From: Chloroflexota bacterium
GTDB lineage: Bacteria; Chloroflexota; Anaerolineae; UBA4142; SHND01
DNA length: 58,154 nucleotides
NCBI GenBank assembly: GCA_029778615.1
Contig: JAKOPZ010000042.1
Span: forward strand, 1 to 58,154
Direction of reading: 5' to 3'
In this document: piece after piece, positions 29,613 through 56,321 of the stretch
Numbering within the stretch: position 1 is the stretch's first letter
Layout of the letters: each line of letters starts with the position of its first letter
Translations under genes and position numbers: made by a program
The notes under the pieces: model-generated
Told to the model about the DNA's origin: nothing
Seen by the model: the letters and a program-made list of their open reading frames with translations, nothing else
Database searches by the model: none

Positions 29613-31148
29613 ATGGAACAACCCCTGCCACCAAGAACTGACATTCTGCCCGCGAAAATGCGCCCCGCGCCCATAGAACGCGCGAACGCGTTGATTGGCG
29701 CGGCGCTGCGCGTCTCGCTGCGCGGACGCGTCCTCTTGCTGGTGCGTATCATTTGGGGCGCGCTCGTCGCGACAACGCTCAGCTTGTTTGCGTTAACAAT
29801 TCCCGCGCGCTATAGCCAGCTTTTGATTATTGGCGCCGAGAACAGTATTGCCATGCAGGAGCTCGGGCTGCCACAAAATACGCCCGCCTTTGTGGTGGGC
29901 GCAATGGACGGACTGCTCTTTATCACATATACGCTCGTAGGCGCAATCATTTTTTCACGCAAGTCAGATGAATGGATTGGGCTGTTTGCTTCGCTCACGC
30001 TGCTCACCACCGTTTTTGCAATTGTCCGTCCGGCAGATTCACTGCTGTTTGTGGATAGCATGCTGCACATTCCCCTGCTCATCATTCTCGCGCTGGGGGC
30101 GGTGACCATCACCGTCTTTGTTTATATTTTCCCCGACGGACGTTTTGTGCCGAGTTGGACGCGCTGGATTGTGATTGGCTTGGGCGCGTTTGCAGTGTAC
30201 GGGTTGATTGACCGCATGTTTTTGACGCAGCCCTTTCGCTGGCCCCCCGCCCCGCTGTCGCCGATTATTTACCTCGGCGTGCTTGGCGGCGCGGTCATTC
30301 AATTTTACCGCTATCGGCGCGTCTCGGACCTCGCGCAAAAACAGCAAATGAAATGGGTTGTGCTCGGCGTTCTCGTCGGCATCCTCGGCGTCATTGGCTT
30401 TGTCATGGTCGTTCCGCTGCTGCTGCCGCGCGTGGGATTGCCCGGCATGACGCGCGTGTTGTATGTGTTGATTGGCGTGCCGATTTTTTATCTGGCGCTG
30501 CTGCAGCTGCCCATCGCGCTCGCGATTTCGATTTTGCGCTATCGGCTGTGGGACATTAACTTTATTGTCAGCCGCACGCTGATTTATCTTTCGCTGACCG
30601 GGATTTTGGCAGGGCTGTTTGCAGTCTTTGAAAAAATTACGCAAGACTTGTTTATTGCCATCACCGGCAGTCAGTCAAATTTTGCGCCTATCATTTCGAC
30701 CCTCGTCGTCGTCGCCGCGTTCACGCCGCTCAAAGATATTCTGCAAAAGTTTGTTCAGGCGCGCGTCAAAGATTCTGCCGACCCGACGGCGCGCTTGAAA
30801 ACATTTCGCGAACGCGTCGAGACGCGCATTTCGCCGTTGAACCCCGTGCAAATCGCGCGGCGTTTGGCGCTCGAATTGGTCGCGGCATACAACGCCAAAG
30901 GCGGCGCCGTGTTTGGCATCGAGAATGACCAAACGAAAATCTTGTATACCTTGGGCGAATGGGACGGCGAAGCATCTTTGTGCATTCCCATCGAAAGCAG
31001 CGCAGGCGCGACGCGTTTTGGGTATATCGCATTGGACGAACGCAAAAACGGCGCGCAGTATAGTGCGCGCGACCAAGCCGCGCTCCAAGACGTAACGCAA
31101 GCCGTTGCGCGCGCGCTGGAAGAAGACCAATTCACCGATGCGCCATGA
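29613..31148 (+). CDS. Membrane sensor-like protein without a kinase domain
   Basis: 511 residues. About nine hydrophobic segments from residue 40 to 360, with FPDGRFVPSWTRWIVIGLGAF and IALAISILRYRLWDINFIVSRTLIYL signatures. Then follows a short soluble part (about 390-511) that resembles a degenerate GAF domain (LALELVAAYNAKGGAVFG ... SARDQAALQDVTQAVARALEE). The membrane part closely resembles the one in the histidine kinase at 56421-58154 (FPDGRFVPRWMRWFAP; MLRDQLWQSERVLNRAFVYF), but no H-box or ATPase domain follows. It may signal through a partner or be a degraded kinase. The stop overlaps the GT4 start by 4 bases. Confidence 0.78.
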   Translation: MEQPLPPRTDILPAKMRPAPIERANALIGAALRVSLRGRVLLLVRIIWGALVATTLSLFALTIPARYSQLLIIGAENSIAMQELGLPQNTPAFVVGAMDGLLFITYTLVGAIIFSRKSDEWIGLFASLTLLTTVFAIVRPADSLLFVDSMLHIPLLIILALGAVTITVFVYIFPDGRFVPSWTRWIVIGLGAFAVYGLIDRMFLTQPFRWPPAPLSPIIYLGVLGGAVIQFYRYRRVSDLAQKQQMKWVVLGVLVGILGVIGFVMVVPLLLPRVGLPGMTRVLYVLIGVPIFYLALLQLPIALAISILRYRLWDINFIVSRTLIYLSLTGILAGLFAVFEKITQDLFIAITGSQSNFAPIISTLVVVAAFTPLKDILQKFVQARVKDSADPTARLKTFRERVETRISPLNPVQIARRLALELVAAYNAKGGAVFGIENDQTKILYTLGEWDGEASLCIPIESSAGATRFGYIALDERKNGAQYSARDQAALQDVTQAVARALEEDQFTDAP

Positions 31149-37362: not shown

Positions 37363-37447
37363 CTTTGAGCTGGATTCTGTAATCCGCAAATTGTGTAGAG
37401 TCATCCTTCAGAATGATATTCGCTTTTGATTGCCGGAGTGTAGGGTC

Positions 37448-38521
37448 ATGAACAGCGCGTTGACCAGCCCGTTCAACGCGCTTTTTGGCGCGTTCTCGCG
37501 CGATGTTTCGATTGACCTCGGCACCGCCAACACGCTCGTCCTCGTGCGCGGGCGCGGCATCACCATTAACGAACCCTCCGTCGTCGCGATTGAACGCCGC
37601 AGTAAACGCGTCCTCGCAATTGGCTCGGAAGCGAAACAAATGGTCGGACGCACCCCCGCCGACATTATTGCGATTCGTCCACTGCGCGACGGCGTGATTT
37701 CCGATTTCGACGTGACCGAAGCGATGCTCACGCACTTCATTCGCCGCGTGCACGACGAAACCATTTTGCCCGTGCCGCATCGCCCACGTGTCGTCATCGG
37801 CATTCCGTCCGGCGTGACCGAAGTGGAAAAACGCGCGGTCAAAGACGCGGCGATTAGTGCCGGTGCGCGTGAAGTGCATCTCATCGAAGAACCGATGGCT
37901 GCTGCCATCGGCGCGGGCTTGCCCGTCACCGAAGCGGTCGGTTCGATGATTGTGGACATTGGCGGCGGCACGACCGAAATGGCAGTGTTGTCGTTGGGCG
38001 GCATTGTGGTGAGCCGTTCCATTCGCGTCGCAGGCGATGAGATGGACGACGAAATTATTCGCTACGCGCGCGAGAAATACAATTTACTCATCGGCGAACG
38101 CATGGCGGAACAGGCGAAAATTGAAATCGGTTCCGCGTATCCGCTCCAGCAAGAACGCACGATGGTAATTCGCGGGCGTAACCTCATTACCGGACTGCCC
38201 GAGTCCATCGAAATTTCTTCAGTTGAAGTCCGCGAAGCGTTGGTGAATCCGGTCAATCAAATTGTCGACGCGTTGAAAACGACGATTGACGAAACGCCGC
38301 CCGAACTCGTCGCGGATTTAATGGTGCGCGGCATTGTGCTCGCGGGCGGCGGCGCGATGCTCGGCGGTTTGGCGGAACGGCTCTCGCGCGAAACCAAAAT
38401 GCGCGTCTATGTCGCCGACGACCCGTTGACCTGTGTAGTGCGCGGCGCCGGACAATTTCTCGAAATGCTCGATATTCTTCCGCGCGGCTTTGCCGGCGCA
38501 AATGGTCGCGGCAGGCGCTAA
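37448..38521 (+). CDS. mreB: Rod shape-determining protein MreB
   Basis: 357 residues from the ATG behind GGAG; a TTG six codons upstream (37430) is less likely. Actin-fold motifs: phosphate 1 SIDLGTANTLVLV, connect 1, IVDIGGGTTEMAVLSLGG (phosphate 2) and MVRGIVLAGGGAMLGG (adenosine). IEEPMAAAIGAGLPV is the MreB interdomain block. MreB forms antiparallel filaments that organise wall elongation with MreC, MreD, RodA and PBP2. It heads the mreBCD cluster. An inverted-repeat element lies between it and mreC. Confidence 0.95.
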   Translation: MNSALTSPFNALFGAFSRDVSIDLGTANTLVLVRGRGITINEPSVVAIERRSKRVLAIGSEAKQMVGRTPADIIAIRPLRDGVISDFDVTEAMLTHFIRRVHDETILPVPHRPRVVIGIPSGVTEVEKRAVKDAAISAGAREVHLIEEPMAAAIGAGLPVTEAVGSMIVDIGGGTTEMAVLSLGGIVVSRSIRVAGDEMDDEIIRYAREKYNLLIGERMAEQAKIEIGSAYPLQQERTMVIRGRNLITGLPESIEISSVEVREALVNPVNQIVDALKTTIDETPPELVADLMVRGIVLAGGGAMLGGLAERLSRETKMRVYVADDPLTCVVRGAGQFLEMLDILPRGFAGANGRGRR

Positions 38522-38530
38522 ACGCCTCGC

Positions 38531-38596
38531 GTAGGGGCGAAGCATTTTCGTTCGCGCCCGCGTAAATTTGGCGTTGGCTCTGAAAATGCTTCGCCC
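38531..38596. repeat. Inverted-repeat element, GTAGGGxCGAAGCATT family, copy 2
   Basis: GGGCGAAGCATTTTC (38535-38549) is a perfect complement of GAAAATGCTTCGCCC (38582-38596), and the left end begins GTAGG. Ten bases behind the mreB stop. Same family as 691-762. Confidence 0.75.
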
Positions 38597-38618
38597 TTGG
38601 ATTTTGTAATTCCTCTTC

Positions 38619-39542
38619 ATGCTCGACCTCCTCCGCACACGCACCGGTTTCATCCTCATTCTCATCACGCTCGTCTTTATCGGCATTGGCTTGCGCGCCA
38701 CCGGCAATATGGGTCTCGTTCAGGACGCGACCTTTGGCGTGTTCACACCCGTCGAAATTTTTTTGATTGACGCAACGAACGGGGTAAACAATTTGTTTGG
38801 CGGCTTTCAAGACGTGAACAAACTGCGCGCGCAGGTGAAACAATTGCAGGAGCAATTGAATACGGCGGTGATTGACAGCGTGCGCGTGCGCGAATTGGAA
38901 ATTGAAAATTCAGAATTGCGCGCGCAGCTGGAATATAAACAGGCGAATCCCGATTATTTGCTTTCGGGCGCGACGGTACTCGAAGAGAATGACACGCGCG
39001 CGCGCGTGATTTCCCAAGACCCCTCCGCGCTCGTCAATTACATTTTGATTGACCAGGGACGCGAGGAGGATGTCGCAGTCGGAATGCCGGTGATTACGCC
39101 GGCGGGGCTTGTCGGACGCGTTACCGAAGTGGGTTCCACGTGGGCACGCGTGCTGCTCGTCAACGATACGACTTCTTCCGTTAATGCCGTCGTCCAATCC
39201 ACGCGCGCAACCGGCGTGATTCAAGGGCAGGGACAAGGCAGTGACCTTTTGATAATGCGCTATTTGCCGCTTGGCGATTCGGTGAAAAAAGATGACCTCA
39301 TCCTCACGTCAGGCATCGGCGGCGCCTTTCCAAAACGTCTCGTCATCGGACAGGTCATCCAAGTGCGTCAGCGCGACACGGATTTATTTACCGAAGCGGT
39401 TGTCCGTCCGAGCGTAGATTTATCGCGGCTGGAATTTGTTTTGGTGATGAAAAAATTCACGCCCGCCGACATCACCACCGAGCCCACGCCGACGCCGACA
39501 CCCTCGCCCACGCCCACGCGCGTTCCAACACCCGCACAATAG
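38619..39542 (+). CDS. mreC: Rod shape-determining protein MreC
   Basis: 307 residues. A membrane anchor (about 9-30) is followed by a coiled coil (about 66-107: NKLRAQVKQLQEQLN ... ENSELRAQLEY), then the beta-rich MreC domain (about 115-285: YILIDQGREEDVAVGMPVITPAGLVGRVTEVGSTWARVLLVNDTTSSVNA). It ends with a TPTPTP tail, which is unusual for MreC but fits the style of exported proteins in this genome. MreC links the MreB filament to PBP2 outside the membrane. Confidence 0.93.
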   Translation: MLDLLRTRTGFILILITLVFIGIGLRATGNMGLVQDATFGVFTPVEIFLIDATNGVNNLFGGFQDVNKLRAQVKQLQEQLNTAVIDSVRVRELEIENSELRAQLEYKQANPDYLLSGATVLEENDTRARVISQDPSALVNYILIDQGREEDVAVGMPVITPAGLVGRVTEVGSTWARVLLVNDTTSSVNAVVQSTRATGVIQGQGQGSDLLIMRYLPLGDSVKKDDLILTSGIGGAFPKRLVIGQVIQVRQRDTDLFTEAVVRPSVDLSRLEFVLVMKKFTPADITTEPTPTPTPSPTPTRVPTPAQ

Positions 39543-39619
39543 TGCGAATCACGCGGCTGGATTCTCAAGTTTGAATTCTGCCCTGCAAAACCCAATTCCA
39601 ATCGCCTGTTCCAATTTTC

Positions 39620-40117
39620 ATGTCTCCCTATCTCGTTCTTCCGCTTTTAATTCTGGTCACGCTCGCGCAAACGACGCTGCTGCCGATTTTTGTGCCGGGT
39701 CCCGTGCGTCCTGATTTGATGTTGATGCTCGTGGTGGGCTGGGGCGTTGTGCACGGCAACGGGCAAGCAGCACTATGGGGTTTGGGCGGCGGACTCTTGC
39801 TCGATTTATTTTCGGGCGCGCCGTTCGGCTTGCATACGTTTGGTTTGGGCGGCATCGGCTGGCTGGCGGATGTTTTGCAGACCAACTTTTTTCGGTCAAA
39901 CCTTCTCATTCCACTTGCCACCATTTTCATTGCGACCCTGCTGTATCACATCGGTCAAGCCGCCGTGATGCAAGTGTTGGGCTATACAATCAACTGGGCA
40001 TTTTATTCGTTCAATGTTGTGATGCCCACCGCGATTTTGAACACGGCGCTCATGCCACTGGTCTATTGGATTTTGCGCCGCCTTGACCGCGTGGTGCGTC
40101 CGCGTTTGACTTGGTAG
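39620..40117 (+). CDS. mreD: Rod shape-determining protein MreD
   Basis: 165 residues with five to six hydrophobic segments. The RPDLMLMLVVGWGVVHGNGQAALWGLGGGLLLDLFSGAPFGLHTFGLGG block is typical MreD. It ends in RRLDRVVRPRLTW. It works with MreC in the elongasome. It follows mreC after 77 bases. Confidence 0.88.
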   Translation: MSPYLVLPLLILVTLAQTTLLPIFVPGPVRPDLMLMLVVGWGVVHGNGQAALWGLGGGLLLDLFSGAPFGLHTFGLGGIGWLADVLQTNFFRSNLLIPLATIFIATLLYHIGQAAVMQVLGYTINWAFYSFNVVMPTAILNTALMPLVYWILRRLDRVVRPRLTW

Positions 40118-40185
40118 TCTGATTGTCTATTTGTCGGATTGCCGGATGGTCACCCCATCACCCGCAGCGCCATGAAATCTTTTCA

Positions 40186-42528
40186 ATGACTAGCCGACTA
40201 ACAGACTTGCTGTCCAACCGACTTGGTCGTCTTGCTCTTTTATTCCTTTTTGCGCTCCCCGCCCTCTCGCCTCTTTTTTCTCCAACCCCTACGCGCAGCG
40301 CCGATGGTCTGCTGCATCTCTATCGCCTCGTGCAATTGGACGCGTTGTGGCGCAACGGAATTTTTTTCTCGCGCTGGCTGCCTGACCTCGCGTTTGGTTA
40401 CGGAATGCCGCTGTTTAATTATTACGCGCCGCTTGTTTATTACATCACCACGCCTTTGCATTGGCTCGGCATTCCCTTTACGCTCGCGCTGAATCTTGCG
40501 CTCGCGGCGGCAATGTTCGTCGGCGCGGTGGGAATGTTTTATTTCACGCGCGCAGTACTGCGCGATGTTGAAAAAAGCGATTTCGGAAATTTTTCTGCGC
40601 TCGTCGCCGCGCTCGCGTATTTGTATGCCCCATACATTTTGTACAACGCGCTGCATCGCGGCAATCTCGCGGAACAATGGGCGCTTGCGTTCGCGCCGTT
40701 CGCGTTGTGGCGATTTTTGGAATTGACGCGCACACCGAACGCGCTGAATTGGTCACTTGCCGTTTTGTTTTTCGCGGCAGTGATGCTTTCACACAACGTC
40801 ACGAGTTTTTTATTCGCGCCGCTGCTTTTTGTATTTACGCTCGCGTGCGTGTTTTCCAATACGACGCGCGCAAAAAATGACGTTTCACGTTTGACGTTTC
40901 CCGTTTCGCGTTTCTCGCTTCTCGCTCCACTCTCTGCATTTCTCCTCGCCCTCGCGCTCTCGTCGTTCTTTTGGCTGCCGGCATTATTGGAACGCGATTT
41001 TGTCCAAATTGCGCGCGTGATTGTTACTCCTGATTTTGATTATCGTTTCAATTTTGTGCCGTTCAGAGAATTGATTTCATTCTTGCCGCGTGCGGATACG
41101 GGACGCTTGAATCCGTCGTTTCCTGCGACGCTTGGCGTGTTTCAAATTTTGTTTGCAAGTGGGGGAATTATTTTTTTGTTTTGGAAATTTCGTTCGCGGC
41201 GCGCGCTGCCATGGTTTACGCTTGCGTTCGCGGCGTTTGGGTTCATCGCGTTGATGCTCTCCTTCTCGCAGCCAATTTGGGACAGCATTTCGCTTTGGTC
41301 ATACGTGCAATTGCCGATGCGTCTGCGCGGACTTGGGGCATTGTGTCTCGCGCCCTTTGCGGGAATTTTTGTTTTTGCACTGCCAACGCGTTGGAAACTT
41401 TTGAGCGCGTGTGTGGCAAGCGTCGCCATCGTTTTGAGCGCGCTGCCAATGCTGTATCCGCGTTACGCACGCGACGTGCCGCCGAATCCGACATTGACCG
41501 ATATGTTCGCGTATGAACAAAAAACAGGCGCGTTCGGCACGACATCGTTCGGAGAGTATCTGCCCGTGTGGGTGCAAAATCTTCCCGATAAATCGCCATT
41601 CGCAGAAGACTATGCGCGGGGCGAAAATCCAAATCGCCTGGTGATTCCTGAAGGCGTAGATGTTTGTGGCGCACAAATTCAGCCGCTTGTAGAAAATGTT
41701 TGTGTTAATTCGAACGATTCGTGGCGCGCCATTTACCGCGCGTTTTATTTTCCCGGTTGGCGCGTAACGCTCGACGGCACGCCGCTTGAAATTACGCCGA
41801 CGCCGCGCACGGGGTTGATTTCGTTCGACGTGCCAAAGAGTGGAACGCTTTCCGTTACGTACAAAGGAACATCGCTCGAACAGCTCGCGGACTGGATTTC
41901 AACGTCAAGTGCGATTCTTGTGTTTGGAGTTTTCGCGTTTGGAATGTACAAAAAAATCCAATCTCCAATCTCCAATCTCCAATCTCCAATCTCCAGTCTC
42001 CAATCTCCAAGCTCGGATTTCCCCTTGCTCCTTCTCGTCGCCCTCGCGCTCATCGCTCTCAAACTTGTTTACATTGACCGCGTGAGCAATCCGTTCGTCG
42101 CGCATTCTGACAACACACAGGTCGAGGGAATTTCGCAAACACGCACTGCGCGTTTTGGCGACAATCTGCAATTGCTCGGCTTTGATGTGAACGCGACCGA
42201 CATTGCGCGCGGCGAAACCCTGCGTACCGATTTGTACTGGCGCGCGCTGCCAGAATTAAAAGAGGATTTGAGTGTGTTTGTTCATCTCGTCGCGCCCGAC
42301 GGCAGCATCGTCGCGCAAAAGGATAATTTGCATCCTGCGAATTTACCGACGACGCAGTGGGAGTTGGACGCGTATGTGGCGGATGAACACGCGCTCGCAA
42401 TTCCTGTGACGCTCGCGGCGGGCGAGTACGAATTGCGCGCCGGTGTGTACGACCCGCGCACAGATACGCGCTTGAAAACAGCTGATGGCGCAGACTTTAT
42501 TCTGCTGCAAAAAATTCGTGTGAAATGA
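40186..42528 (+). CDS. Large YfhO/PTPS-related-like membrane protein
   Basis: 780 residues. About ten or more membrane helices from residue 12 to 440, with an extracellular loop at 455-570 (PNPTLTDMFAYEQKTGAFGTTSFGEYLPVW), one helix pair near 590-640, and a soluble C-terminal domain (about 650-780: LLGFDVNATDIARGETLRTDLYWRALPE, LSVFVHLVAPDGS). This looks like membrane proteins of the 6-pyruvoyl-tetrahydropterin-synthase-related or YfhO (GT-like) families. Sugar transfer is possible but not shown. Heptanucleotide repeats lie within the gene at 40879-40927 and 41958-42013. ATG at 40186 chosen; the frame extends to 40123. Located between mreD and the PBP2 gene. Confidence 0.75.
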   Translation: MTSRLTDLLSNRLGRLALLFLFALPALSPLFSPTPTRSADGLLHLYRLVQLDALWRNGIFFSRWLPDLAFGYGMPLFNYYAPLVYYITTPLHWLGIPFTLALNLALAAAMFVGAVGMFYFTRAVLRDVEKSDFGNFSALVAALAYLYAPYILYNALHRGNLAEQWALAFAPFALWRFLELTRTPNALNWSLAVLFFAAVMLSHNVTSFLFAPLLFVFTLACVFSNTTRAKNDVSRLTFPVSRFSLLAPLSAFLLALALSSFFWLPALLERDFVQIARVIVTPDFDYRFNFVPFRELISFLPRADTGRLNPSFPATLGVFQILFASGGIIFLFWKFRSRRALPWFTLAFAAFGFIALMLSFSQPIWDSISLWSYVQLPMRLRGLGALCLAPFAGIFVFALPTRWKLLSACVASVAIVLSALPMLYPRYARDVPPNPTLTDMFAYEQKTGAFGTTSFGEYLPVWVQNLPDKSPFAEDYARGENPNRLVIPEGVDVCGAQIQPLVENVCVNSNDSWRAIYRAFYFPGWRVTLDGTPLEITPTPRTGLISFDVPKSGTLSVTYKGTSLEQLADWISTSSAILVFGVFAFGMYKKIQSPISNLQSPISSLQSPSSDFPLLLLVALALIALKLVYIDRVSNPFVAHSDNTQVEGISQTRTARFGDNLQLLGFDVNATDIARGETLRTDLYWRALPELKEDLSVFVHLVAPDGSIVAQKDNLHPANLPTTQWELDAYVADEHALAIPVTLAAGEYELRAGVYDPRTDTRLKTADGADFILLQKIRVK
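40879..40927 (+). repeat. Heptanucleotide repeat, seven units, in-frame
   Basis: GACGTTT, CACGTTT, GACGTTT, CCCGTTT, CGCGTTT, CTCGCTT, CTCGCTC (7 x 7 bases). Encodes DVSRLTFPVSRFSLL between two membrane helices. Confidence 0.8.
41958..42013 (+). repeat. Heptanucleotide CCAATCT repeat, eight units, in-frame
   Basis: Five CCAATCT, one CCAGTCT, one CCAATCT, one CCAAGCT. Encodes a 7-residue period (SPISNLQ) after a membrane helix of the YfhO-like protein. Confidence 0.9.
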
Positions 42529-42562
42529 AAAATGACGCTGATTTGGCAGCGTCATTTTTTTA
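42526..42562. terminator. Converging-gene terminator
   Basis: AAAAATGACGCTG (42528-42540) and CAGCGTCATTTTT (42547-42559) around ATTTGG. The plus-strand stop lies at its left edge. Confidence 0.85.
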
Positions 42563-43210
42563 GCGTGTATAATTTTTCAAATAACGCGGCACCGGAATTT
42601 CCTTGTACAATTTCGGGTCGGGCTGCGGCGCAAGAAATTTTTGCTCAATCGGAATCACGCCTGCCCACCAATCTTTTTCATAATCCTCCGCATCATCTTT
42701 CGGTCCGCCGACGCGCATTTTCGCGGTCGCGCTTTCAATCGGCATTTCAATTATTGTCGTCGCTTTTAATTCTTTTTTATTCGGCAAGCGCGCGTCGTCC
42801 CAACGTCCCGGCATCACGCGTTCGGTCAGCGCCAAGAGCGCATCATATTTTGCTTGCGGGTCATCGAGAACGCGCCCCACACCAAACAACACTACCGAAC
42901 GATAATTCATCGAATTGTGAAAGATGCCGCGCGCGACGACGAGTCCATCGAGCAGCGTCGTGGTCACACAAATCGGATTCCCCGCTTGAATGTGTTTGAG
43001 CAGACGACTCGTGGTCGCACCGTGCAGTAACAGCGTATCGCCGCGCCGCGCGTGAATGGTGGGAATCACAAACGGTTGATTGTCTTGCGCGATGCCCACG
43101 TGACAAATCAACGCTTCGTCCAGAATTTTGTAAATCGTTTCCGCGTCATACGCCGCGCGTTCGGGCAAGCGTTTGACGCGGTTGCGCGGTGTTTTGGCAA
43201 AGGCGGTCAT
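42560..43210 (-). CDS. Pyridoxamine 5'-phosphate oxidase-like flavin-binding protein
   Basis: 216 residues from the ATG at 43210, chosen because GGAGAA lies 7 bases upstream. Split-barrel signature: LICHVGIAQDNQPFVIPTIHARRGDTLLLHGATTSRLLKHIQAGNPICVTTTLLDGLVVARG and SVVLFGVGRVLDD, as in Nim-like or PPOX-family FMN-binding proteins. Oxidation of PNP/PMP is not implied, since the family has many functions. It is the only minus-strand gene in the envelope block and probably unrelated to it. Confidence 0.87.
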   Translation of the reverse strand: MTAFAKTPRNRVKRLPERAAYDAETIYKILDEALICHVGIAQDNQPFVIPTIHARRGDTLLLHGATTSRLLKHIQAGNPICVTTTLLDGLVVARGIFHNSMNYRSVVLFGVGRVLDDPQAKYDALLALTERVMPGRWDDARLPNKKELKATTIIEMPIESATAKMRVGGPKDDAEDYEKDWWAGVIPIEQKFLAPQPDPKLYKEIPVPRYLKNYTR

Positions 43211-43323
43211 GTTGAAATTCTCCGTGTCGTTTTCCCGTATCGTATGCAATATGACGCGCGCAAGCAAATTGTGCGCTGTACGCGCGCAGATGAAAATTCT
43301 CTCATCTGCGCGCGCCAAATAAT

Positions 43324-43352
43324 TTGCCAGTCCCCTACGCTAAATTTATAAT
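43324..43352 (+). promoter_or_regulatory. Strong promoter of the PBP2 gene
   Basis: TTGCCA (43324-43329), 17-base spacer, TATAAT (43347-43352). The expected start near 43359 leaves only about 5 bases before the ATG at 43364, so the message would be almost leaderless. Confidence 0.75.
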
Positions 43353-43363
43353 GACTTGTACTT

Positions 43364-45433
43364 ATGCTGCGTTATGGGCGTCCCCCGCAATTTGACGAAG
43401 GGGAAGAAGAACTCGAAGTCAAGCCGAGTTGGTTCATTCGGCTGTTGGGCGTGCTGGTCGTCATCGCGTTTACCATTCTCGGTTACAACTTGTACCGCAT
43501 TCAAGTGGTGCAAGGCGAAGAATTGAAACGCGCCGCCGACGAAAATCGCATCCGCCTCGTGCGTACCGATGCCGCGCGCGGCGTCATTTACGACGCGAAC
43601 GGTCAAGTGATTGTCCGCAACGAGCCGCAGTTCAATGTTTCCATTGTCCCCGCCGATTTGCCCGCCGACAAGCAAGACGACATTCTAAAAAAATTGAGCG
43701 TGCTAATTGACGCGCCGCTCGATACGATAGTCGAAGCCGAAACCGCCGACACGCTCGGCTCGATTCCGAGCGATGTTTCGCGCACATTTATTTCGCCCAC
43801 GCGCAAACCCGGACTGCGCGAATTGGTAGACGAGGGACGCAACACCGACCCGCTCAATCCGGTGCTCGTCAAAACCAACATCCCGCGCCTCATCGCGTTT
43901 CAACTCCAGGAACGCGTCGTAGATTTTCCCGGCGTGCGCGTGGAAATCGCGCCCGTGCGCACGTATCCCGAAAAAGAATTGGCATCCCATCTTTTGGGCT
44001 ATCTCGGCGCGATTTCGCGCGAAGCATTTCCGGAATACGAAAAACGCGGTTATACGCAAAATGATTTTGTCGGCGCGAGCGGTTTGGAAGCCGCGTACGA
44101 AGACCAACTGCGCGGACGCTCCGGCACGGATTTGGCGATTGTAGATGCAAACGGCAACATCATTCGCAGCGCGCAGCAAGAAGCGCCCGTGCCGGGCAAC
44201 AATTTAATTTTGTCGCTCGACATGCCGCTGCAACAAGAGGTGCAGGACGCGCTGCAAAAAGGATTGGCGCAAAAAAAACTCAAGCAGGGTGTCGCCATTG
44301 TGATGAATCCGAACAACGGCGAAATTCTCGCGATGGTCTCTTTGCCCTCCTACGACGACAATCTGTTTGCGCGCGGTATCCGCCCCACCGACTTTGCCGC
44401 ATTGAATCAAGACCCCGACCGCCCATTGGTGAATCACGCCATCACGGGAATGTATCCGCCCGGTTCCGTATACAAGTTGTTTTCCGCCGCCGGCGCGCTG
44501 CAAGAAGGTGTTATCAACGTCAACACCTTGATCAACGACCCCGGCATTATTTATTTGCCCAATAAATTTTTCCCTGACGACCCCAAACTCGCGCAGCCGT
44601 TTTACAATTGGTATCGTCCCGGCTTTGGCAACGTCAACATCATTGACGCGATTGCCAACTCGAACGATATTTTCTTTTACAAAATCAACGGCGGCTTTAC
44701 CGATTTTCCAACGCCGCTCGGTCAAGCGCTCCTCGCCGACTATGCGCGCTTGTTTGGTTATGGCACGGAAACGGGAATTGATTTGCCCGGCGAAGCGCCC
44801 GGCGTTGTCCCCGACCCCAAATGGAAACAGCGCACCAAGAATGAACAATGGACGACGGGCGACACGTACAACATGGCAATCGGTCAGGGCTTTGTGTTGG
44901 CAACACCGTTACAAGTTTTGAATATGACCGCCACCATTGCCAACGGCGGCACACTGTATCGTCCCCATCTCGCGCGCGCCATTGTGAACGCGAGCGGCAC
45001 CGTTACCAATACCATCGAGCCGCAAGTCATTCGCAAACTGCCGATTGACGAACAGAATCTCGCGCTCGTGCGTCAAGGAATGCGCGAAGCCGTCACACGC
45101 GGCACCGCATGGAAAGTCAATTTGCAAGACGTTCACGTCGCGGGCAAAACGGGCACCGCCGAATTTTTTGGACCGCGAAAGGGCGGGCACTTGCCGACGC
45201 ACGCGTGGTTCACCGCGTTCGCGCCGTACGAAAATCCCGAAATTGCGGTGGTCGTTTTTGTGTACGACGGCGGCGAAGGGTCCGAAGTTGCCGCGCCGAT
45301 TGCGGCGGACATTCTCCGCGCGTATTTCAAATTGCCTCCGGACGCGCCGCTCATCCAGCGCAATAATCCGCCGCCGCCCGAAACCGGCACCACCGCGCCC
45401 GGCGGCGCGGCGCCGCCACCGCCCGCGCAGTAA
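43364..45433 (+). CDS. mrdA: Penicillin-binding protein 2
   Basis: 689 residues. One membrane anchor (about 24-46), a dimerisation domain (60-240), then the transpeptidase. Active motifs: Ser368-Val-Tyr-Lys371 (SxxK), Ser433-Asn-Asp435 (SxD, as in E. coli PBP2) and Lys595-Thr-Gly597. It cross-links peptidoglycan for cell elongation, with RodA as usual partner (no rodA in the window). The C-terminus is Pro-rich. Adjacent to mreBCD it completes the elongasome block. The start has no RBS and lies just behind the promoter. Confidence 0.95.
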   Translation: MLRYGRPPQFDEGEEELEVKPSWFIRLLGVLVVIAFTILGYNLYRIQVVQGEELKRAADENRIRLVRTDAARGVIYDANGQVIVRNEPQFNVSIVPADLPADKQDDILKKLSVLIDAPLDTIVEAETADTLGSIPSDVSRTFISPTRKPGLRELVDEGRNTDPLNPVLVKTNIPRLIAFQLQERVVDFPGVRVEIAPVRTYPEKELASHLLGYLGAISREAFPEYEKRGYTQNDFVGASGLEAAYEDQLRGRSGTDLAIVDANGNIIRSAQQEAPVPGNNLILSLDMPLQQEVQDALQKGLAQKKLKQGVAIVMNPNNGEILAMVSLPSYDDNLFARGIRPTDFAALNQDPDRPLVNHAITGMYPPGSVYKLFSAAGALQEGVINVNTLINDPGIIYLPNKFFPDDPKLAQPFYNWYRPGFGNVNIIDAIANSNDIFFYKINGGFTDFPTPLGQALLADYARLFGYGTETGIDLPGEAPGVVPDPKWKQRTKNEQWTTGDTYNMAIGQGFVLATPLQVLNMTATIANGGTLYRPHLARAIVNASGTVTNTIEPQVIRKLPIDEQNLALVRQGMREAVTRGTAWKVNLQDVHVAGKTGTAEFFGPRKGGHLPTHAWFTAFAPYENPEIAVVVFVYDGGEGSEVAAPIAADILRAYFKLPPDAPLIQRNNPPPPETGTTAPGGAAPPPPAQ

Positions 45434-45574
45434 TACCAATACCAAATTCTGTCACGCACCCGTGTGCATGACAAACCTTGCATATGGCATTATCATTATC
45501 TCCGACACGCGCGGAACCGCTGCGCGTCGCGCGCCGTCTATTTCGTGCCGTCATCACCGCCGAATCCATTTGCA

Positions 45575-47089
45575 ATGTTTCCCCCGCGTAATTTTTCCCG
45601 TTCTGAAATTTCTGCCGCGTTCCAATTGTGCGCGCCGCAAATCGTTTTGAATTTGCTCATTGGCGGCGCGTGGCTGTTTTTGTATCGCGGCATTTTTGAT
45701 TACCTCGAACTCGTCGCGGTGCGCGAAGATTTTCGCACCAATCAACTCGTTCTCATCGGCATCGTCGCGTTACTGCTTTGGCAAATTCACACGGGAAATT
45801 TTCAACTCGAATTTCACGCCGCGCCGCGCGCGTATCGCGTTCCTTTGGCGCTCGCGCTCGGCGGCTCGCTGTTGTATCTCAGCGCCGAACGCCTCCTCGA
45901 CATCAACACCTTGTCCGCCACACTGTTCGGGCTGGCGAGTTATGGCTTGCTCGGCTTGTGGAAGACGCCGCGCAGTTGGCGCGCGGGTTTGCCCGCCGCG
46001 TTGCTTTTGGTGGGTGTACTGCCTTTTGGCGACCACCTGCAAACGTTCGTCGGTTATCCGATGCGAATTTTCACCGCGCAGCTCGTACGCGATGGACTCG
46101 CCGCGTTTCATGTCACCTCAACCGGCGTGGACACAATCCTCGTTCTCGAAAATGGCGTCACGCAAATTGATTTGCCATGCAGTGGCGTCAAAAGTTTGTG
46201 GACCGGCGCGCTCTTTTTTCTCGCGGTCACCTGGCTGGAACGGCGGCGTTTAGATTGGCGATGGGTGTTGATTGGCATTCTCTTTGGCGTTTTGCTTTTT
46301 ATCGCGAATTTTGTCCGCGTCGGCGCGTTGGTTGTCGCCGCGCAAGTTTTGAATCTGCCGCTCTTGGCAGAAATGCTGCATGTGCCGCTCGGCGTGCTCG
46401 GTTTCGTCGGCGCGTGCGCGGCGGCAGTGGGACTATTGAAAAGCAAAAATCAAAATTCCTCCGCACTTGCTTTTGCTGCGCGCGATTCATTTTTTTCGAT
46501 TCCCCATTTTTCACTTGGCTTTGCCGTCGTCATTGCGGCGCTCGCGCTCTTGTACGCGCCGCGTCCCGAAACAGGTCTCGCACATCCCGCGCCGGTGTGG
46601 AATTTCCCGCCCGCGCTCCATACGCAAACTCTCCCGCTCAAGCCGGATGAATTGGCAATGCTCACCCGCGACGGCGCGGAATCGGCAACGCGTTTGCGGT
46701 TCGAGTGGCAGGGCATTGGCGGTTCAATGATTTTGGTGCCGAGCCGCACCTGGCGCGCGCATCATCGCCCCGAACGTTGTTTTGAAGTGTTTGGTCTGCA
46801 ATTGAACGATTCGCGCGCGCAGCTCGCGGCGCCTGATTTTCCTTTGCGCGCGGTAACGCTCCGCGACCCGCACAGCGACGCGCGTTGGAACGCCGCGTAC
46901 TGGTTTCAAGCCGCGACACAAACAACGGATGATTACGGCACGCGCATTTGGGCGGATACAGTTGCGCCCGCGCAGCGTTGGATTTTGGTCTCTATTTTGT
47001 TTGACCAAAATATCGCGCCGGACGATGCGCGCGTCATCGCGCTGTATCACGCGCTGCACGAAACCATCGCGCAGCAATTAATGGATTGA
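45575..47089 (+). CDS. xrt: Exosortase (transpeptidase family) fused to an EpsI-like domain
   Basis: 504 residues; the ATG at 45575 is chosen, but the frame is open back to 45464. About eight to nine membrane helices. The exosortase catalytic residues are all present: Cys202 in QIDLPCSGVKSLW, Arg248 in NFVRVGALV, and His269 in EMLHVPLGVLG. A soluble C-terminal part (about 330-504: SMILVPSRTWRAHHRPERCFEVFG) resembles EpsI-type partner domains. Exosortases cleave C-terminal PEP-CTERM signals and pass the protein to an envelope anchor. The next gene encodes a PEP-CTERM protein 51 bases away, a strong hint that it is the substrate. It resembles the dedicated exosortase O group, not verified. Confidence 0.85.
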   Translation: MFPPRNFSRSEISAAFQLCAPQIVLNLLIGGAWLFLYRGIFDYLELVAVREDFRTNQLVLIGIVALLLWQIHTGNFQLEFHAAPRAYRVPLALALGGSLLYLSAERLLDINTLSATLFGLASYGLLGLWKTPRSWRAGLPAALLLVGVLPFGDHLQTFVGYPMRIFTAQLVRDGLAAFHVTSTGVDTILVLENGVTQIDLPCSGVKSLWTGALFFLAVTWLERRRLDWRWVLIGILFGVLLFIANFVRVGALVVAAQVLNLPLLAEMLHVPLGVLGFVGACAAAVGLLKSKNQNSSALAFAARDSFFSIPHFSLGFAVVIAALALLYAPRPETGLAHPAPVWNFPPALHTQTLPLKPDELAMLTRDGAESATRLRFEWQGIGGSMILVPSRTWRAHHRPERCFEVFGLQLNDSRAQLAAPDFPLRAVTLRDPHSDARWNAAYWFQAATQTTDDYGTRIWADTVAPAQRWILVSILFDQNIAPDDARVIALYHALHETIAQQLMD

Positions 47090-47090
47090 A

Positions 47091-47116
47091 TTCTCCCGCC
47101 GCCGGATTCGGGAGAA
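47091..47116 (+). promoter_or_regulatory. Hairpin between exosortase and substrate genes
   Basis: TTCTCCCG (47091-47098) and CGGGAGAA (47109-47116). No T run follows, so it is more likely an mRNA stabiliser or attenuator than a terminator. Confidence 0.5.
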
Positions 47117-47140
47117 GGCAGAGAATGAGAGGAAAGAGTT

Positions 47141-50047
47141 ATGCAAAAAACTTTGACGAACCTTACGCGGGCGGGCATTTTCGAGTACGCCTTGTTTTGG
47201 GTCTGGAACGCGGTGTTTCTCGGTTTTATGCTGCTCGGCTTTGCGCCGCTCTTTTTGCCTGACCTTGTGCTCGCCGCGCAGGCAAACATTATTCCGTTCG
47301 CGCTGGTCGCGACCGCGCTGCTTTTGATTCTCATTCCCATCGCCTGCGTGATTTTGGGTTTCACCGTTTTGCGGCGGCAGCCCCGCGCATTGTTTGCGTT
47401 GGGCTATGCGGTCGAAGGTCCGCTCATGCTGGTTGTGGCGTTTCGTCTTTTTGTCGTGCGCGAAATGACTCCCGTGCTCGCGTTCATTTTCGTCGTCACC
47501 GCGTTGGGCATGCTCGCGTTTGTGTGGCAGCTGCTCGACAAGAAAATTGACGCGCGCGGCGCGCTGCTTGCCCACATCCGCGTCATCGGCTTGACCCTGT
47601 TTGCGCTCATCGCCCTCTATGCGAGCATCTGGCTGGCGTTCTATGCCCTGCCGCTCGGTGTGCTCCTCGTGCGCGGCTTGTTCGAATTTCTCTGGCATCT
47701 CGGCGATTTTTTCAACGGCTTGCTGCTCGCGTTCCGCGAATTTCCGCGCAATTTGGTGTGGATTCCGTTCGCGGTGTTTGGGATGTTGACAATGGTCTTT
47801 AGCGCGACGTTGTTTGTGTTGATGCCCATCGCTGTGCCCCTCCTCGTTCTGCGCGCGTGGTGGCGCGCCATCCGAAATCCTGTGGCGCGTTTTGGCGCGC
47901 CGCGCGTCGCGCTCGTGACCACTGCCATCGCCGCGCTCTGCGCGTTTCTCTTTTTCTTTTTCAACCAACAACCACAGTCTGCCGCCTTTGCCTTGCTCAA
48001 ATCTATTCCCGCCAATGCTTTGCAAGCGCAACAAATCGCCGCGCAAGAAAATACAATTCGCGCGGGTCTTTTGAACGCGTATCTCGCGCCACAGCGCTAC
48101 ATCAGTTCCATGGGCGAAGTGCAGCACATTCGGCAGCTGTACCAAAACGCGTTCAACCTCCCCCAAACCAATTTTGTCGGCGTCGAACGCGCGTACGAAA
48201 CCGTCGCCTCGCCGTTGTTGTATCAACCGAGCGGCGAAGCAGTCCCCAACGCGCGCGCGAACGACGGCGCCTTGTTCCGCGAATCGAATCAAGCGGCGAA
48301 ATTGTACGAAAATTATTTTGACGAAACAATTTACAACGGCGAACGCGAAACGGTGTTGGCGGCGCTCGGCTCGACGTGGGATATTCAGCGCGCGCAGCAA
48401 ATGGTCCAAGATGCCGCCGACCGCGAGGTGCATCTCAACAAACAAGAATTGAACGTGGTCGAACACGGCGATTGGGCGGATTTTGAACTGCACGAAGAAT
48501 ATCAAAATGAAACGGGCGAACGTCAGGAAGTGGTCTATTACATCACCCTGCCCGAATCGGCAGTCATTACCGGCGTGTGGCTCGGCAATTCCGAAAATCG
48601 CGCGGAACGCGCGGTGTATCGCGTCTCGCCGCGCGGCGCCGCACAGCAAGTGTACCGCGAACAACTTGTCCGCAACATTGACCCCGCGCTGGTGGAACAA
48701 ATCGGTCCGCGTCAATATCGCGTGCGCGTTTTCCCCGTCGAACCGCGCACGCTTGGACATCAGAACGAAACGTTTGGCTTTCGCACTGCATTTGTGAATC
48801 CCGGACCGCCGCTGCATTTTTGGATGACGTGGCGTGTGATGGCGGCGGAGAACGCGTGGACGCTGCCGTATCTCGCGGAAAAACGCAATGTGTATTGGGA
48901 TGAAAAAACCGCGCGCACGTTGAATGGAAATGTTTTGGCGGTGAACGCCGACGCGTGGCTGCCCGAGACGCTCCCCGCCGCGAGCGCCATCGCCCGCACA
49001 ACGCATCGTTTTGATTTACCGAATGGCGAATCCATCCTCGCGCAGCCGCTTGATGCGAACACGATTCCCGCATTGCCAGCCAGCGCGCGCCTCGCCGTCA
49101 TCGTGGACCGTTCGCGCAGTATGCAGCCCCGCGCGCAAGACGTCCAAAACGCGCTCGCGCAATTCAAAACGATTTCGGAACGCGGCAATCCGGTGGATGT
49201 TTATCTCACCGCTTCGAAATTTCGCGGCGAACCCGAAACGCGCGTCACGCTCGACACGTTGAATCCCAACGCGCTCACGTACATCGGCGGACAAAATCCT
49301 GCCGAACTCTTACAGCAATTTGGAAATTTGCGCGGCGCGGAAAATTACGATGCGATTTTTGTCTTGACGGATGGGACGGGGTACGCGCTCGGCGCGAACG
49401 ATTCCAAACCCGCGAGTGTGAATGCGGCATTGTGGTTCGTCCATCTCGGCGGCAAGTTTCCGCTCGGTTACGACGATGCAACGCTGCAAGAAATTCAATC
49501 TACGGGCGGCGGCGTGACGGGAAATTTGCAAGACGCGCTGAATCGTTTCGCCGTCGCGCTCGCATTGAAACGCGGTGAACCGATTGCCAATCTGCCGGGC
49601 GATGCCAACGCGGAATATGTGGACAACTATGTCTGGCTCACGCTGCCGACGAACGAGGGACAAACGCGTTTTCCTGAAATCGCGTCCGACGAAAATTTCG
49701 CGCCGTTCGCCGCGCGGCATCTCATTCTCACCAACGTCCAACGCGACCGCGCTTCTCTGCAACAACTCAACACGCTCGACGAACTGCACGCGTTGGCAAA
49801 ACAGTACAGCATTGTTTCGCCGTACTCGTCCATGATTGTTTTGATTAACGAAGCGCAGCAGCAGCGGCTGGACGATTTGGAAAAACAGGGCGACCGTTTT
49901 GCGCGCGAACAAGAACAAGTGGGACAAACGACCTCGCCGTTCGACGTAACCGCCGTGCCGGAACCGCACGAGTACGTGCTGATGGCGGTGGGCGTTCTCT
50001 TGTTTATTTGGTACGCGCGGCGTACGCGGCGCCGGGTGCCGGCATAA
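47141..50047 (+). CDS. Multi-spanning VIT/vWA protein with PEP-CTERM sorting signal
   Basis: 968 residues. GAGGAAAG precedes the ATG. About seven to eight N-terminal helices (14-285), then a stalk, a VIT-like domain (about 430-540: NVVEHGDWADFELHEEYQN, VFPVEPRTLGHQNETF), and a vWA domain (about 648-820) with a complete MIDAS: VIVDRSRSMQ (D-R-S-R-S near 656), and VLTDGTGY. The C-terminus VPEPHEYVLMAVGVLLFIWYARRTRRR (about 939-965) is a textbook PEP-CTERM signal: VPEP, a hydrophobic helix, and Arg residues. PEP-CTERM on a multi-spanning protein is rare and matches the TIGR02921-type family. Metal-dependent ligand binding is inferred for vWA. Confidence 0.87.
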   Translation: MQKTLTNLTRAGIFEYALFWVWNAVFLGFMLLGFAPLFLPDLVLAAQANIIPFALVATALLLILIPIACVILGFTVLRRQPRALFALGYAVEGPLMLVVAFRLFVVREMTPVLAFIFVVTALGMLAFVWQLLDKKIDARGALLAHIRVIGLTLFALIALYASIWLAFYALPLGVLLVRGLFEFLWHLGDFFNGLLLAFREFPRNLVWIPFAVFGMLTMVFSATLFVLMPIAVPLLVLRAWWRAIRNPVARFGAPRVALVTTAIAALCAFLFFFFNQQPQSAAFALLKSIPANALQAQQIAAQENTIRAGLLNAYLAPQRYISSMGEVQHIRQLYQNAFNLPQTNFVGVERAYETVASPLLYQPSGEAVPNARANDGALFRESNQAAKLYENYFDETIYNGERETVLAALGSTWDIQRAQQMVQDAADREVHLNKQELNVVEHGDWADFELHEEYQNETGERQEVVYYITLPESAVITGVWLGNSENRAERAVYRVSPRGAAQQVYREQLVRNIDPALVEQIGPRQYRVRVFPVEPRTLGHQNETFGFRTAFVNPGPPLHFWMTWRVMAAENAWTLPYLAEKRNVYWDEKTARTLNGNVLAVNADAWLPETLPAASAIARTTHRFDLPNGESILAQPLDANTIPALPASARLAVIVDRSRSMQPRAQDVQNALAQFKTISERGNPVDVYLTASKFRGEPETRVTLDTLNPNALTYIGGQNPAELLQQFGNLRGAENYDAIFVLTDGTGYALGANDSKPASVNAALWFVHLGGKFPLGYDDATLQEIQSTGGGVTGNLQDALNRFAVALALKRGEPIANLPGDANAEYVDNYVWLTLPTNEGQTRFPEIASDENFAPFAARHLILTNVQRDRASLQQLNTLDELHALAKQYSIVSPYSSMIVLINEAQQQRLDDLEKQGDRFAREQEQVGQTTSPFDVTAVPEPHEYVLMAVGVLLFIWYARRTRRRVPA

Positions 50048-50089
50048 AAAAAGGACAGACATCTTGGATGTCTGTCTCTTTTTTTTTAT
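50047..50089 (+). terminator. Strong terminator behind the PEP-CTERM gene
   Basis: GACAGACATC (50054-50063) and GATGTCTGTC (50067-50076) around TTG, then a run of about ten T. Confidence 0.9.
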
Positions 50090-54558: not shown

Positions 54559-54966
54559 ATGAAAAAATATTTCATCATCGCTTTTCTCTCAACCGCGTTC
54601 GTTGCAAGTATCGCCGCGTGTGGGACGCCCTCTCCCCAAGTAAATTTCACGGCGCCGCAAAACAACGCGACGGTGTCCAATCCCGTTCAAGTGAAATGGG
54701 CGGCGCAAAATTTTCGCGTGGAACCTGCCGGCGCCGTCAACGCGGGCGCGGGACATTTGCACGTGATGATTGATACGCCGTGTGTCGCGGCGGGACAAGT
54801 TGTGCCGAATGATGACACGCACAAACATTTCGGCAAGGCACAGATGGAAACCGAACTGACGCTCACGCCGGGCAAACATACGTTGTGTTTGCAGGCGGCG
54901 GATGGCGCGCACGTCGCCCTGTCGGGCGCGGGCATGACGCAGCAAATTTCGATTACGGTTCAATAA
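54559..54966 (+). CDS. DUF4399 domain lipoprotein
   Basis: 135 residues from the ATG behind AAAGGAG. The lipobox ends in Cys21 (SIAAC). The mature part is DUF4399-like: NFTAPQNNATVSNPVQVKWAAQNFRVEPAGAVNAGAGHLHVMID and the paired DDTHKHFGKAQMETELTLTPGKHTLCLQ. DUF4399 is found in periplasmic proteins of unknown role; the conserved His residues (GHLHV, THKHFG) may bind metal. Anchored to the outer face of the membrane. Confidence 0.83.
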   Translation: MKKYFIIAFLSTAFVASIAACGTPSPQVNFTAPQNNATVSNPVQVKWAAQNFRVEPAGAVNAGAGHLHVMIDTPCVAAGQVVPNDDTHKHFGKAQMETELTLTPGKHTLCLQAADGAHVALSGAGMTQQISITVQ

Positions 54967-54975
54967 ACTTTGTAA

Positions 54976-55030
54976 GGAACGTTCGCCGTAACGTTCTCTG
55001 CGCGCGAGGGAACGAAACGGCGTTCGTTCC
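54976..55030. repeat. GGAACG inverted repeat (related to 1-66)
   Basis: GGAACGTTCGCC (54976-54987) faces GGCGTTCGTTCC (55019-55030) with two mismatches, with a second AACGTT and GGGAACG inside. It is of the same style as the 1-66 palindromes, 24 bases before the next gene. Confidence 0.5.
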
Positions 55031-55054
55031 ATACATCTCAAAAGGAGCATCAAC

Positions 55055-55636
55055 ATGAACACTACTCTCACGCAAAACAAAACCACTTCCATTGCCTGGC
55101 TGGCGGCGTGGACCATTGCATCCGCAAGTGGAGTTATCGTCAGCATGGTCGGCGTCTTGCCGTTGATGTGGACGTATGGGGAAGGGGTTGAACGCGCGTT
55201 GGGGCAATGGCTCGCGCAAATCATTGGCGGCATCGTCTTGGGGTTGGGCATCGGCACGGCAGTCGGCATCGCGCAATGGCTTGTGCTGCGCGGGCGTTCG
55301 GCTGACGCAACGCGCTGGCTCGTCGGCAGCATTCTCGGCGGTGTGATCGCGGGCATCGTCGGGATTTTGATTAGTGTTTTCAATGAGCAAGGCGAGAATA
55401 TGCCTGTCATGCTGCTTGCGTTCGCGACACTCGGCGGGATTCTCGGACTGGGACAATTCCTCGCGGCGCGTTCGATTGCGCGCAGTCCGTTATGGATTGT
55501 TGCAAACACGGTAGGAATTGTTGCCGCATGGTTCATTGCCTCTATCGAATCAGCCCAACCTGCCAGCGTTGTTGTCGGTGCACTTGTATTCGGGGTCGTG
55601 ACGGCGGCTGCGTTGTGGTGGTCTGCGAAACAATGA
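55055..55636 (+). CDS. Membrane protein of unknown function
   Basis: 193 residues. AAAGGAG lies 8 bases before the ATG. Five to six hydrophobic segments rich in Gly and Ala (IIGGIVLGLGIGTAVGIAQWLVL, GGVIAGIVGILIS, LAFATLGGILGLGQFLAA, IVANTVGIVAAWFIA, VGALVFGVVTAAALWW). No known family was recognised; the pattern resembles glycine-zipper membrane proteins. Its stop overlaps the start of the 29-codon lipoprotein ORF by 4 bases. Confidence 0.72.
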   Translation: MNTTLTQNKTTSIAWLAAWTIASASGVIVSMVGVLPLMWTYGEGVERALGQWLAQIIGGIVLGLGIGTAVGIAQWLVLRGRSADATRWLVGSILGGVIAGIVGILISVFNEQGENMPVMLLAFATLGGILGLGQFLAARSIARSPLWIVANTVGIVAAWFIASIESAQPASVVVGALVFGVVTAAALWWSAKQ

Positions 55637-55722
55637 AACGATTTGTGTTTGTCGCGCTGCTCATTGTGATTGGCTGTGGCACTGCGCCGCAGCCAACGCT
55701 CCATTTCAACCGATTCAAATGA
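55633..55722 (+). CDS. 29-residue putative lipoprotein (small ORF)
   Basis: ATG at 55633 and TGA at 55720, encoding MKRFVFVALLIVIGC then a 14-residue tail. Residues 3-14 are hydrophobic and Cys15 completes a lipobox (VIGC). Both ends show ATGA overlaps with neighbours, the classic coupling pattern, so it is probably translated. It may be a real microlipoprotein, or the 5' remnant of a larger lipoprotein gene. Confidence 0.55.
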   Translation: MKRFVFVALLIVIGCGTAPQPTLHFNRFK

Positions 55723-56321
55723 AAACTCCATTTCCCCTCGCCGCGATGCTCGGTGGAATGCTTTGGCTCGCGTTAAACCTCGCGCTCGTCGGCGCGTGGG
55801 GACGCGGCGATAATTTTCCGACGTACGAATTTTTGAACGCACTGCGTCCGCTGCCACTTGCATTATTCGCGTTCGCGTTGTACGGTTTGTATCGTGTTGT
55901 GAAGGTGGGACGCGTCGGATTTTTCATTTCACTCGCGGGGTTCGGATTGCTCGCGGCGGGCGCGGCGATTGAATTTTGGATTGGCGGCGGTGTGCGCGAT
56001 GGCGACGTGGACACTATTTCGTTAGCAGGATGGTTGACGTATCTTGTCGGCTATTTGCTTTTGAGTATCGGCTTGATTTCATTCGGCATTGCGTTTTATC
56101 GAACGCGCGTGTGGGACACATTCAGCACCGTGCCACTCATTACAGGAATTGTTTGGGCGAGTTGGTTTCTATTCATTATGCTCGGCAATGTGATACAAAA
56201 TAATTTCGCCGCCCTCGCGCAATATCTTTTCGCGTGGTTGTGGATTGGGATAGGAGCGCTGATATGGAAGGAAAAGCAGACGCGCGGTGATTCGTATCGA
56301 ATAAATTCGATTCCTGAATAG
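55719..56321 (+). CDS. Membrane protein of unknown function (DUF-like)
   Basis: 200 residues, six hydrophobic segments: AAMLGGMLWLALNLALVGAW, LPLALFAFALYGLY, FFISLAGFGLLAAGAAIEFWIG, LAGWLTYLVGYLLLSIGLISFGIAF, VPLITGIVWASWFLFIML and FAWLWIGIGALIW. No family recognised. The start overlaps the small lipoprotein stop (ATGA), so it belongs to one transcript with 55055-55722. A small hairpin AAATCCGTT-type (56326-56345) follows. Confidence 0.72.
   Translation: MKTPFPLAAMLGGMLWLALNLALVGAWGRGDNFPTYEFLNALRPLPLALFAFALYGLYRVVKVGRVGFFISLAGFGLLAAGAAIEFWIGGGVRDGDVDTISLAGWLTYLVGYLLLSIGLISFGIAFYRTRVWDTFSTVPLITGIVWASWFLFIMLGNVIQNNFAALAQYLFAWLWIGIGALIWKEKQTRGDSYRINSIPE

Follow-up and report, generated by a model that had tools for sequence, protein, structure and literature searches.

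Evidence for an exclusive partnership between exosortase O and a membrane-spanning VIT/vWA protein in Chloroflexota

The gene pair and its surroundings

The window, the whole stretch of 58,154 nucleotides analysed here, carries two adjacent genes on the plus strand: one for an exosortase O (XrtO) of 504 amino acids (positions 45575 to 47089), followed by one for a 968-amino-acid protein of the TIGR02921 family (PEP_integral; 47141 to 50047), which combines seven N-terminal helices, a VIT domain, a vWA domain and a PEP-CTERM tail and is referred to below as the target. The start of XrtO was taken as the ATG at 45575, from whose methionine the proteins of two relatives (loci L016 and L017) align; an alternative, longer start is the GTG at 45464. 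The 51 bases between the two genes contain a plausible ribosome-binding site (GAGAGGAAAGAG), and directly 3' of the target gene lies a likely intrinsic terminator (50053 to 50077, plus strand), an 11-pair stem followed by a run of T. Since the ribosome-binding site falls in so short a gap and the terminator-like stem follows the second gene, the pair is likely to be co-transcribed as a two-gene unit. A consensus scan also gave a promoter-like site (ATGACA, 17 nt, TATCAT; 45468 to 45496, plus strand) with 10 of 12 matches, which is suggestive only, since the region holds about as many such sites as chance alone would give (2, against an expectation of 1.7).

The pair is immediately preceded by a rod-shape cluster (37430 to 45433) of MreB, MreC, a 165-amino-acid gene and then PBP2, split by a PTPS-related membrane protein (40123 to 42528) and a minus-strand pyridoxamine-oxidase-like gene (42560 to 43318); the sequence flanking the XrtO/TIGR02921 pairs of relatives showed no such arrangement. 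The PTPS-related protein contains an in-frame repeat (QSPISNLQSPISSLQSPSSD, 41980 to 42070) that resembles a short DNA repeat read through in translation. Elsewhere in the window, two long frames (29613 to 31148, 511 amino acids, plus strand; 54589 to 55863, 424 amino acids, minus strand) have no Pfam match at E 1e-4.

The exosortase

The enzyme matches the NCBIfam model for XrtO (TIGR04489) at 375.3 bits against a cut-off of 250, over model positions 18-451 of 451, a near-full-length match that takes in its C-terminal extension, and the Pfam exosortase model PF09721 at 88.5 bits. The profile searches proposed in an earlier note on this DNA, with TIGR04489 and TIGR02921, thus place both proteins well over the curated cut-offs. 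That note had also assigned three catalytic residues to the exosortase, and had named the absence of a Cys-Arg-His arrangement as a finding that would speak against it. The arrangement is present: the predicted nucleophile Cys202 (codon 46178 to 46180, plus strand, in DLPCSGVKSLWTG) and the predicted catalytic residues Arg248 (46316 to 46318, plus strand, in NFVRVG) and His269 (46379 to 46381, plus strand, in MLHVPLG) are all invariant in an alignment of 12 XrtO proteins from two phyla. XrtO is proposed to be a membrane cysteine transpeptidase-like enzyme. Its structure model is of moderate quality (mean pLDDT 74.5), residues 336-504 being better modelled, and a PDB sequence search found no relative at E up to 1.

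The C-terminal part of XrtO (about residues 336-504), described earlier as a fused EpsI-like part, is a conserved domain of the XrtO family: taken alone it scores 123 bits against TIGR04489, whose profile covers it. For kinship to EpsI proper the evidence is weak: DUF3485 (PF11984) reached 22.3 bits, under its cut-off of 26.1, in one relative alone (L018) and left the window's domain unmatched. The modelled domain (46580 to 47086) repeatedly matches folds of the Mog1/PsbP/DcrB/LpqN/SciW type at Z of about 5-7, which is a lead only, because a common arrangement alone can give such values. SciW and EagT6 bind transmembrane segments, and from this comes the possible idea that the EpsI-like domain might hold the tail helix of the target.

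The membrane-spanning target

The target matches TIGR02921 (NCBIfam) at 668.4 bits against a cut-off of 200, over model positions 10-922 of 922. Hydropathy (Kyte-Doolittle) and the positive-inside rule predict seven transmembrane helices at residues 25-274 (47213 to 47962, plus strand), and helices are also present in the AlphaFold2 model. The N-terminus is placed inside and the large domain that follows the helices outside; the inner loops hold 3, 4 and 5 Lys/Arg residues and the outer loops 0, 2 and 3. The VIT domain (about residues 430-582; 48428 to 48886, plus strand) is called by Pfam (PF08487, 34.2 bits, gathering cut-off 26.5). The vWA domain (about residues 646-810; 49076 to 49570, plus strand), which was not called in the Pfam search, carries a DRSRS metal site (D656, S658, S660) and D744, all invariant in the family alignment. 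Both domains are visible in the AlphaFold2 model (mean pLDDT 80), where the vWA part matches known vWA structures, best of all the vWA domain of CMG2 (Z 13.2; 3.1 A over 150 residues), and the combined VIT and vWA region resembles inter-alpha-inhibitor heavy chain 1 (Z 11.3; 8.0 A over 392 residues). A PDB search with the target profile gave no match at E up to 0.01. The description of this gene product as a 968-residue membrane protein with VIT and vWA domains is therefore borne out by its length, the seven helices, the Pfam VIT call and the structural vWA match. A second VIT-domain protein in the genome (L014, G000:C329:28312-28641; a frame of 784 amino acids) matches TIGR02921 over the VIT part only.

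The tail of the target (AVPEPHEYVLMAVGVLLFIWYARRTRRRVPA) comprises PEP, helix and basic parts, as the earlier note had described, and the TIGR02921 model aligns there up to its last position. The generic PEP-CTERM model TIGR02595 scores it at 13.8 bits, below its cut-off of 16, and this is still the best match of that model in the genome; in seven Chloroflexota relatives the tail of the same protein scores 18.5-24.9 bits. A profile built for the XrtO-type tail finds it (VTAVPEPHEYVLMAVGVLLFIWYARRTRRRVPA, 49946 to 50044, plus strand) at E 5.3e-16 as the sole strong match in the genome. In the predicted topology the PEP of the tail is outside and the basic end inside; the tail thus crosses from outside to inside and PEP would sit at the outer face, where the active site of exosortases has been predicted (PMC1569441).

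One enzyme and one target

The genome to which the window belongs (6.0 Mb, about 95% complete), on which assembly the test of exclusivity rests, contains one detectable exosortase, XrtO. A single exosortase, always XrtO, was likewise found in 7 of 8 related Chloroflexota genomes; in the assembly of the eighth (Candidatus Roseilinea, L022), where the TIGR02921 gene begins 16 bases from a contig end, none was found. Genome-wide counts of PEP-CTERM tails rest on profile searches. The tail profile, of 30 columns derived from 13 XrtO-type tails, was run against the 14 genomes that have such tails, among them that of the window, and gave exactly one strong match in every one (E 5e-14 or better), the next-best match in any of them being at E 0.0036. 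Five comparison cyanobacteria gave nothing better than E 0.014. With TIGR02595, seven of nine Chloroflexota genomes had the TIGR02921 protein as the sole match over the cut-off and two had none, while three cyanobacteria serving as positive controls gave 14, 14 and 22 matches at E up to 1, the majority above the cut-off.

These results support the reading, first suggested from the window alone, of a system with one enzyme and one substrate, in which XrtO and the TIGR02921 protein would be exclusive partners. The presence of many other PEP-CTERM proteins, which had been named as evidence against it, was looked for throughout the genome, and no other protein was found over the cut-off or with an XrtO-type tail. 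Most exosortase systems have many targets; a many-target system of the EpsH/PEP-CTERM kind does not fit here, as no second target over the cut-off was found in the genome.

Distribution and the tail motif

Scanning a single genome for each species yielded 33 loci. In all seven loci of the Chloroflexota type with upstream sequence (one of them, L021, assigned by the protein tree), XrtO lies directly upstream of TIGR02921, and the same holds in the cyanobacteria Microcoleus, Coleofasciculus and Rhizonema. Several downstream genes of the window recur in L017 and one in L016, and most flanking genes otherwise differ, which argues that the pair itself is the conserved unit. A wider conserved operon is rejected, since shared downstream genes were seen in close relatives alone. 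XrtO was present in one of 301 genomes sampled from Chloroflexota, the phylum in which its nearest relatives place the window; that one genome is the window's own, and the system is accordingly rare in the phylum. In a sample of 292 genomes from the cyanobacterial phylum, nine had XrtO over the cut-off, each with TIGR02921 adjoining. Two small genomes of that sample (L145 in G520 and L146 in G418) carry divergent XrtO/TIGR02921 pairs (XrtO at about 140 bits) in reversed order, with the target first and the tail PEPEQWAMI. No XrtO homologues were found on plasmids; plasmid pNe_5 of Nostoc edaphicum has a TIGR02921 gene (L015, 11974 to 14742) beside an IS1182 transposase, with no neighbouring XrtO.

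TIGR02921 is not a strictly XrtO-bound family. In the first set, twenty genomes of cyanobacteria (Nostoc, Calothrix, Okeania and relatives) encode it without an exosortase frame of XrtO length, and nine exosortases sampled from these XrtO-less cyanobacteria are all cyanoexosortase B (CrtB, TIGR04156), which belongs to the same superfamily as XrtO but is, at about 300 amino acids, too short to hold its C-terminal domain. The existence of TIGR02921 proteins without XrtO indicates that the basic job of the target is independent of this enzyme. The tails differ with the enzyme: the motif PEP-x-E-[WY]-[LMV]-L is present in all 14 XrtO-type loci, whereas tails of TIGR02921 proteins without XrtO in the first-set cyanobacteria read PE[PAS]SGG, PEPSSG or PEPGM and never show it. 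In held-out genomes the motif was found in 7 of 8 XrtO-associated targets against 0 of 8 others (Fisher p 0.0014, uncorrected for descent), the exception being an XrtO genome (G612) with the tail GVPEPPLVILV. The label of tail type and XrtO requires at least two changes on the protein tree, and because only two are needed, few independent events lie behind the association. PEP-x-E-[WY]-[LMV]-L is thus put forward as a candidate short specificity motif for XrtO.

Relation to known systems

Both families carry curated names, so that neither the enzyme nor a membrane-spanning target is new as a kind; what is new here is the evidence for an exclusive partnership and the candidate specificity motif. 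A 2006 paper (PMC1569441) had already described a PEP-CTERM family whose members have several membrane helices; judging from that description, it is probably TIGR02921. The literature search found no paper naming XrtO. The closest likeness is to the cyanobacterial pairs of Microcoleus, Coleofasciculus and Rhizonema, which share gene order and adjacency, although the Chloroflexota branch is about 30-38% identical to them, and whereas XrtO is the only exosortase in the window's genome, four of the five first-set XrtO cyanobacteria carry others (CrtB in the one tested). CrtB genomes of Nostoc, Calothrix and Okeania encode TIGR02921 proteins too, but have many PEP-CTERM matches (22 at E up to 1 in G317) and target tails of another type.

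XrtN and MSEP-CTERM are dedicated systems. The XrtN system (TIGR04476/TIGR04477) pairs, by its name, an exosortase with a VIT-domain target, as here, and the C-terminal part of the target is weakly similar to TIGR04477 (47.2 bits, cut-off 250). With this score and 43.8 of 200 bits for TIGR04476 it is ruled out for this locus, as is the MSEP-CTERM system (TIGR04286; 20 of 150 bits). The term dedicated system was applied in 2011, in the description of rhombosortase, to a sorting enzyme with a single target, and vWA/VIT proteins were shown there with LPXTG, GlyGly-CTERM or PEP-CTERM tails (PMC3237569). Dedicated sortase and rhombosortase systems resemble the present pair in having one enzyme, one adjacent target and targets of the vWA/VIT type (PMC3237569), but their enzymes are non-homologous to XrtO and their tail motifs are different.

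Proposed mechanism and alternative explanations

From the computed evidence of family membership, conserved catalytic residues, adjacency, exclusivity, predicted topology and the co-variation of tail type with XrtO, we infer a cut, a transfer to an acceptor and a role for the target, as follows. XrtO would recognise PEP-x-E-[WY]-[LMV]-L, together with the helix and the basic cluster, on the outer side of the cytoplasmic membrane, and would cleave the target at or beside PEP through an acyl-enzyme on Cys202. The new C-terminus would most likely be passed to an amine-bearing surface acceptor, a lipid or a glycan; the eighth helix of the target would be exchanged for another attachment while the seven N-terminal helices are kept, and the VIT/vWA part, a module of the adhesion or sensing type, would be left outside, tethered at both ends. 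Such a cut would act on a membrane-spanning protein, as the earlier note had proposed and as the seven helices predicted besides the tail helix bear out. Release of the vWA domain, one of the outcomes it had considered, is rejected as the main effect, because the seven N-terminal helices would still anchor the target. As the cut would remove one of eight anchors and cannot free the protein, transfer to a surface acceptor is favoured, and by analogy with archaeosortase A it is the likeliest fate of the C-terminus; PssA and PssD take part in lipid anchoring in the pathway of that enzyme (PMC7157517). We consider it probable, with some reserve, that the pair is a dedicated sorting system in which XrtO cuts the tail and most likely transfers the C-terminus to a surface acceptor while the target stays tethered.

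To our knowledge, the chemistry of exosortases in bacteria is largely unproven, and a cut that transfers nothing would explain the data just as well. XrtO may be a maturation protease that removes the eighth helix (residues 942-965). No acceptor would then take part, and the free C-terminus would change the vWA domain's conformation or its binding to partners. A target still held by seven helices has no need of a replacement anchor, and the stretch before the tail (residues 926-944) is modelled at low confidence as unstructured, such that a freed end could move. However, sortase-like active sites usually transfer, and for the archaeal relative ArtA a link to the attachment of lipid to its substrates has been described (PMC7157517); we regard the protease as rather unlikely, though a serious competitor. 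It is far less probable that the adjacency is a leftover, with XrtO acting on other proteins that have escaped recognition and the tail of the neighbour serving as a mere membrane anchor. The persistence of TIGR02921 proteins without XrtO in many cyanobacteria, and the score of the window tail below the cut-off of the generic model, speak for this reading, but no other XrtO-type tail occurs in the 14 genomes, the generic model finds nothing over its cut-off in the nine Chloroflexota genomes except the TIGR02921 protein, and the adjacency is kept across two phyla while the flanks change. Decay or loss of function of the pair in this lineage is highly improbable, given that both frames are open and full-length and that the catalytic and metal-site residues are invariant across deep divergence.

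Implications

Chloroflexota are generally regarded as single-membraned. If the dedicated sorting reading holds, an exosortase in such a phylum may fix the C-terminus of one VIT/vWA protein covalently to a surface lipid or glycan, making it a doubly tethered sensor or adhesin, and in cyanobacteria the target may have been handed from XrtO to CrtB by the exchange of a few tail residues; taken as a whole, this extended picture is speculative and we offer it as an unlikely one. Few settings could be simpler for addressing the questions of cutting, transfer and acceptor than a two-gene unit that pairs one enzyme with one target and occurs in two phyla, and the occurrence of XrtO-type tails and of those in CrtB genomes on one protein family points to PEP-x-E-[WY]-[LMV]-L as a short candidate specificity motif.
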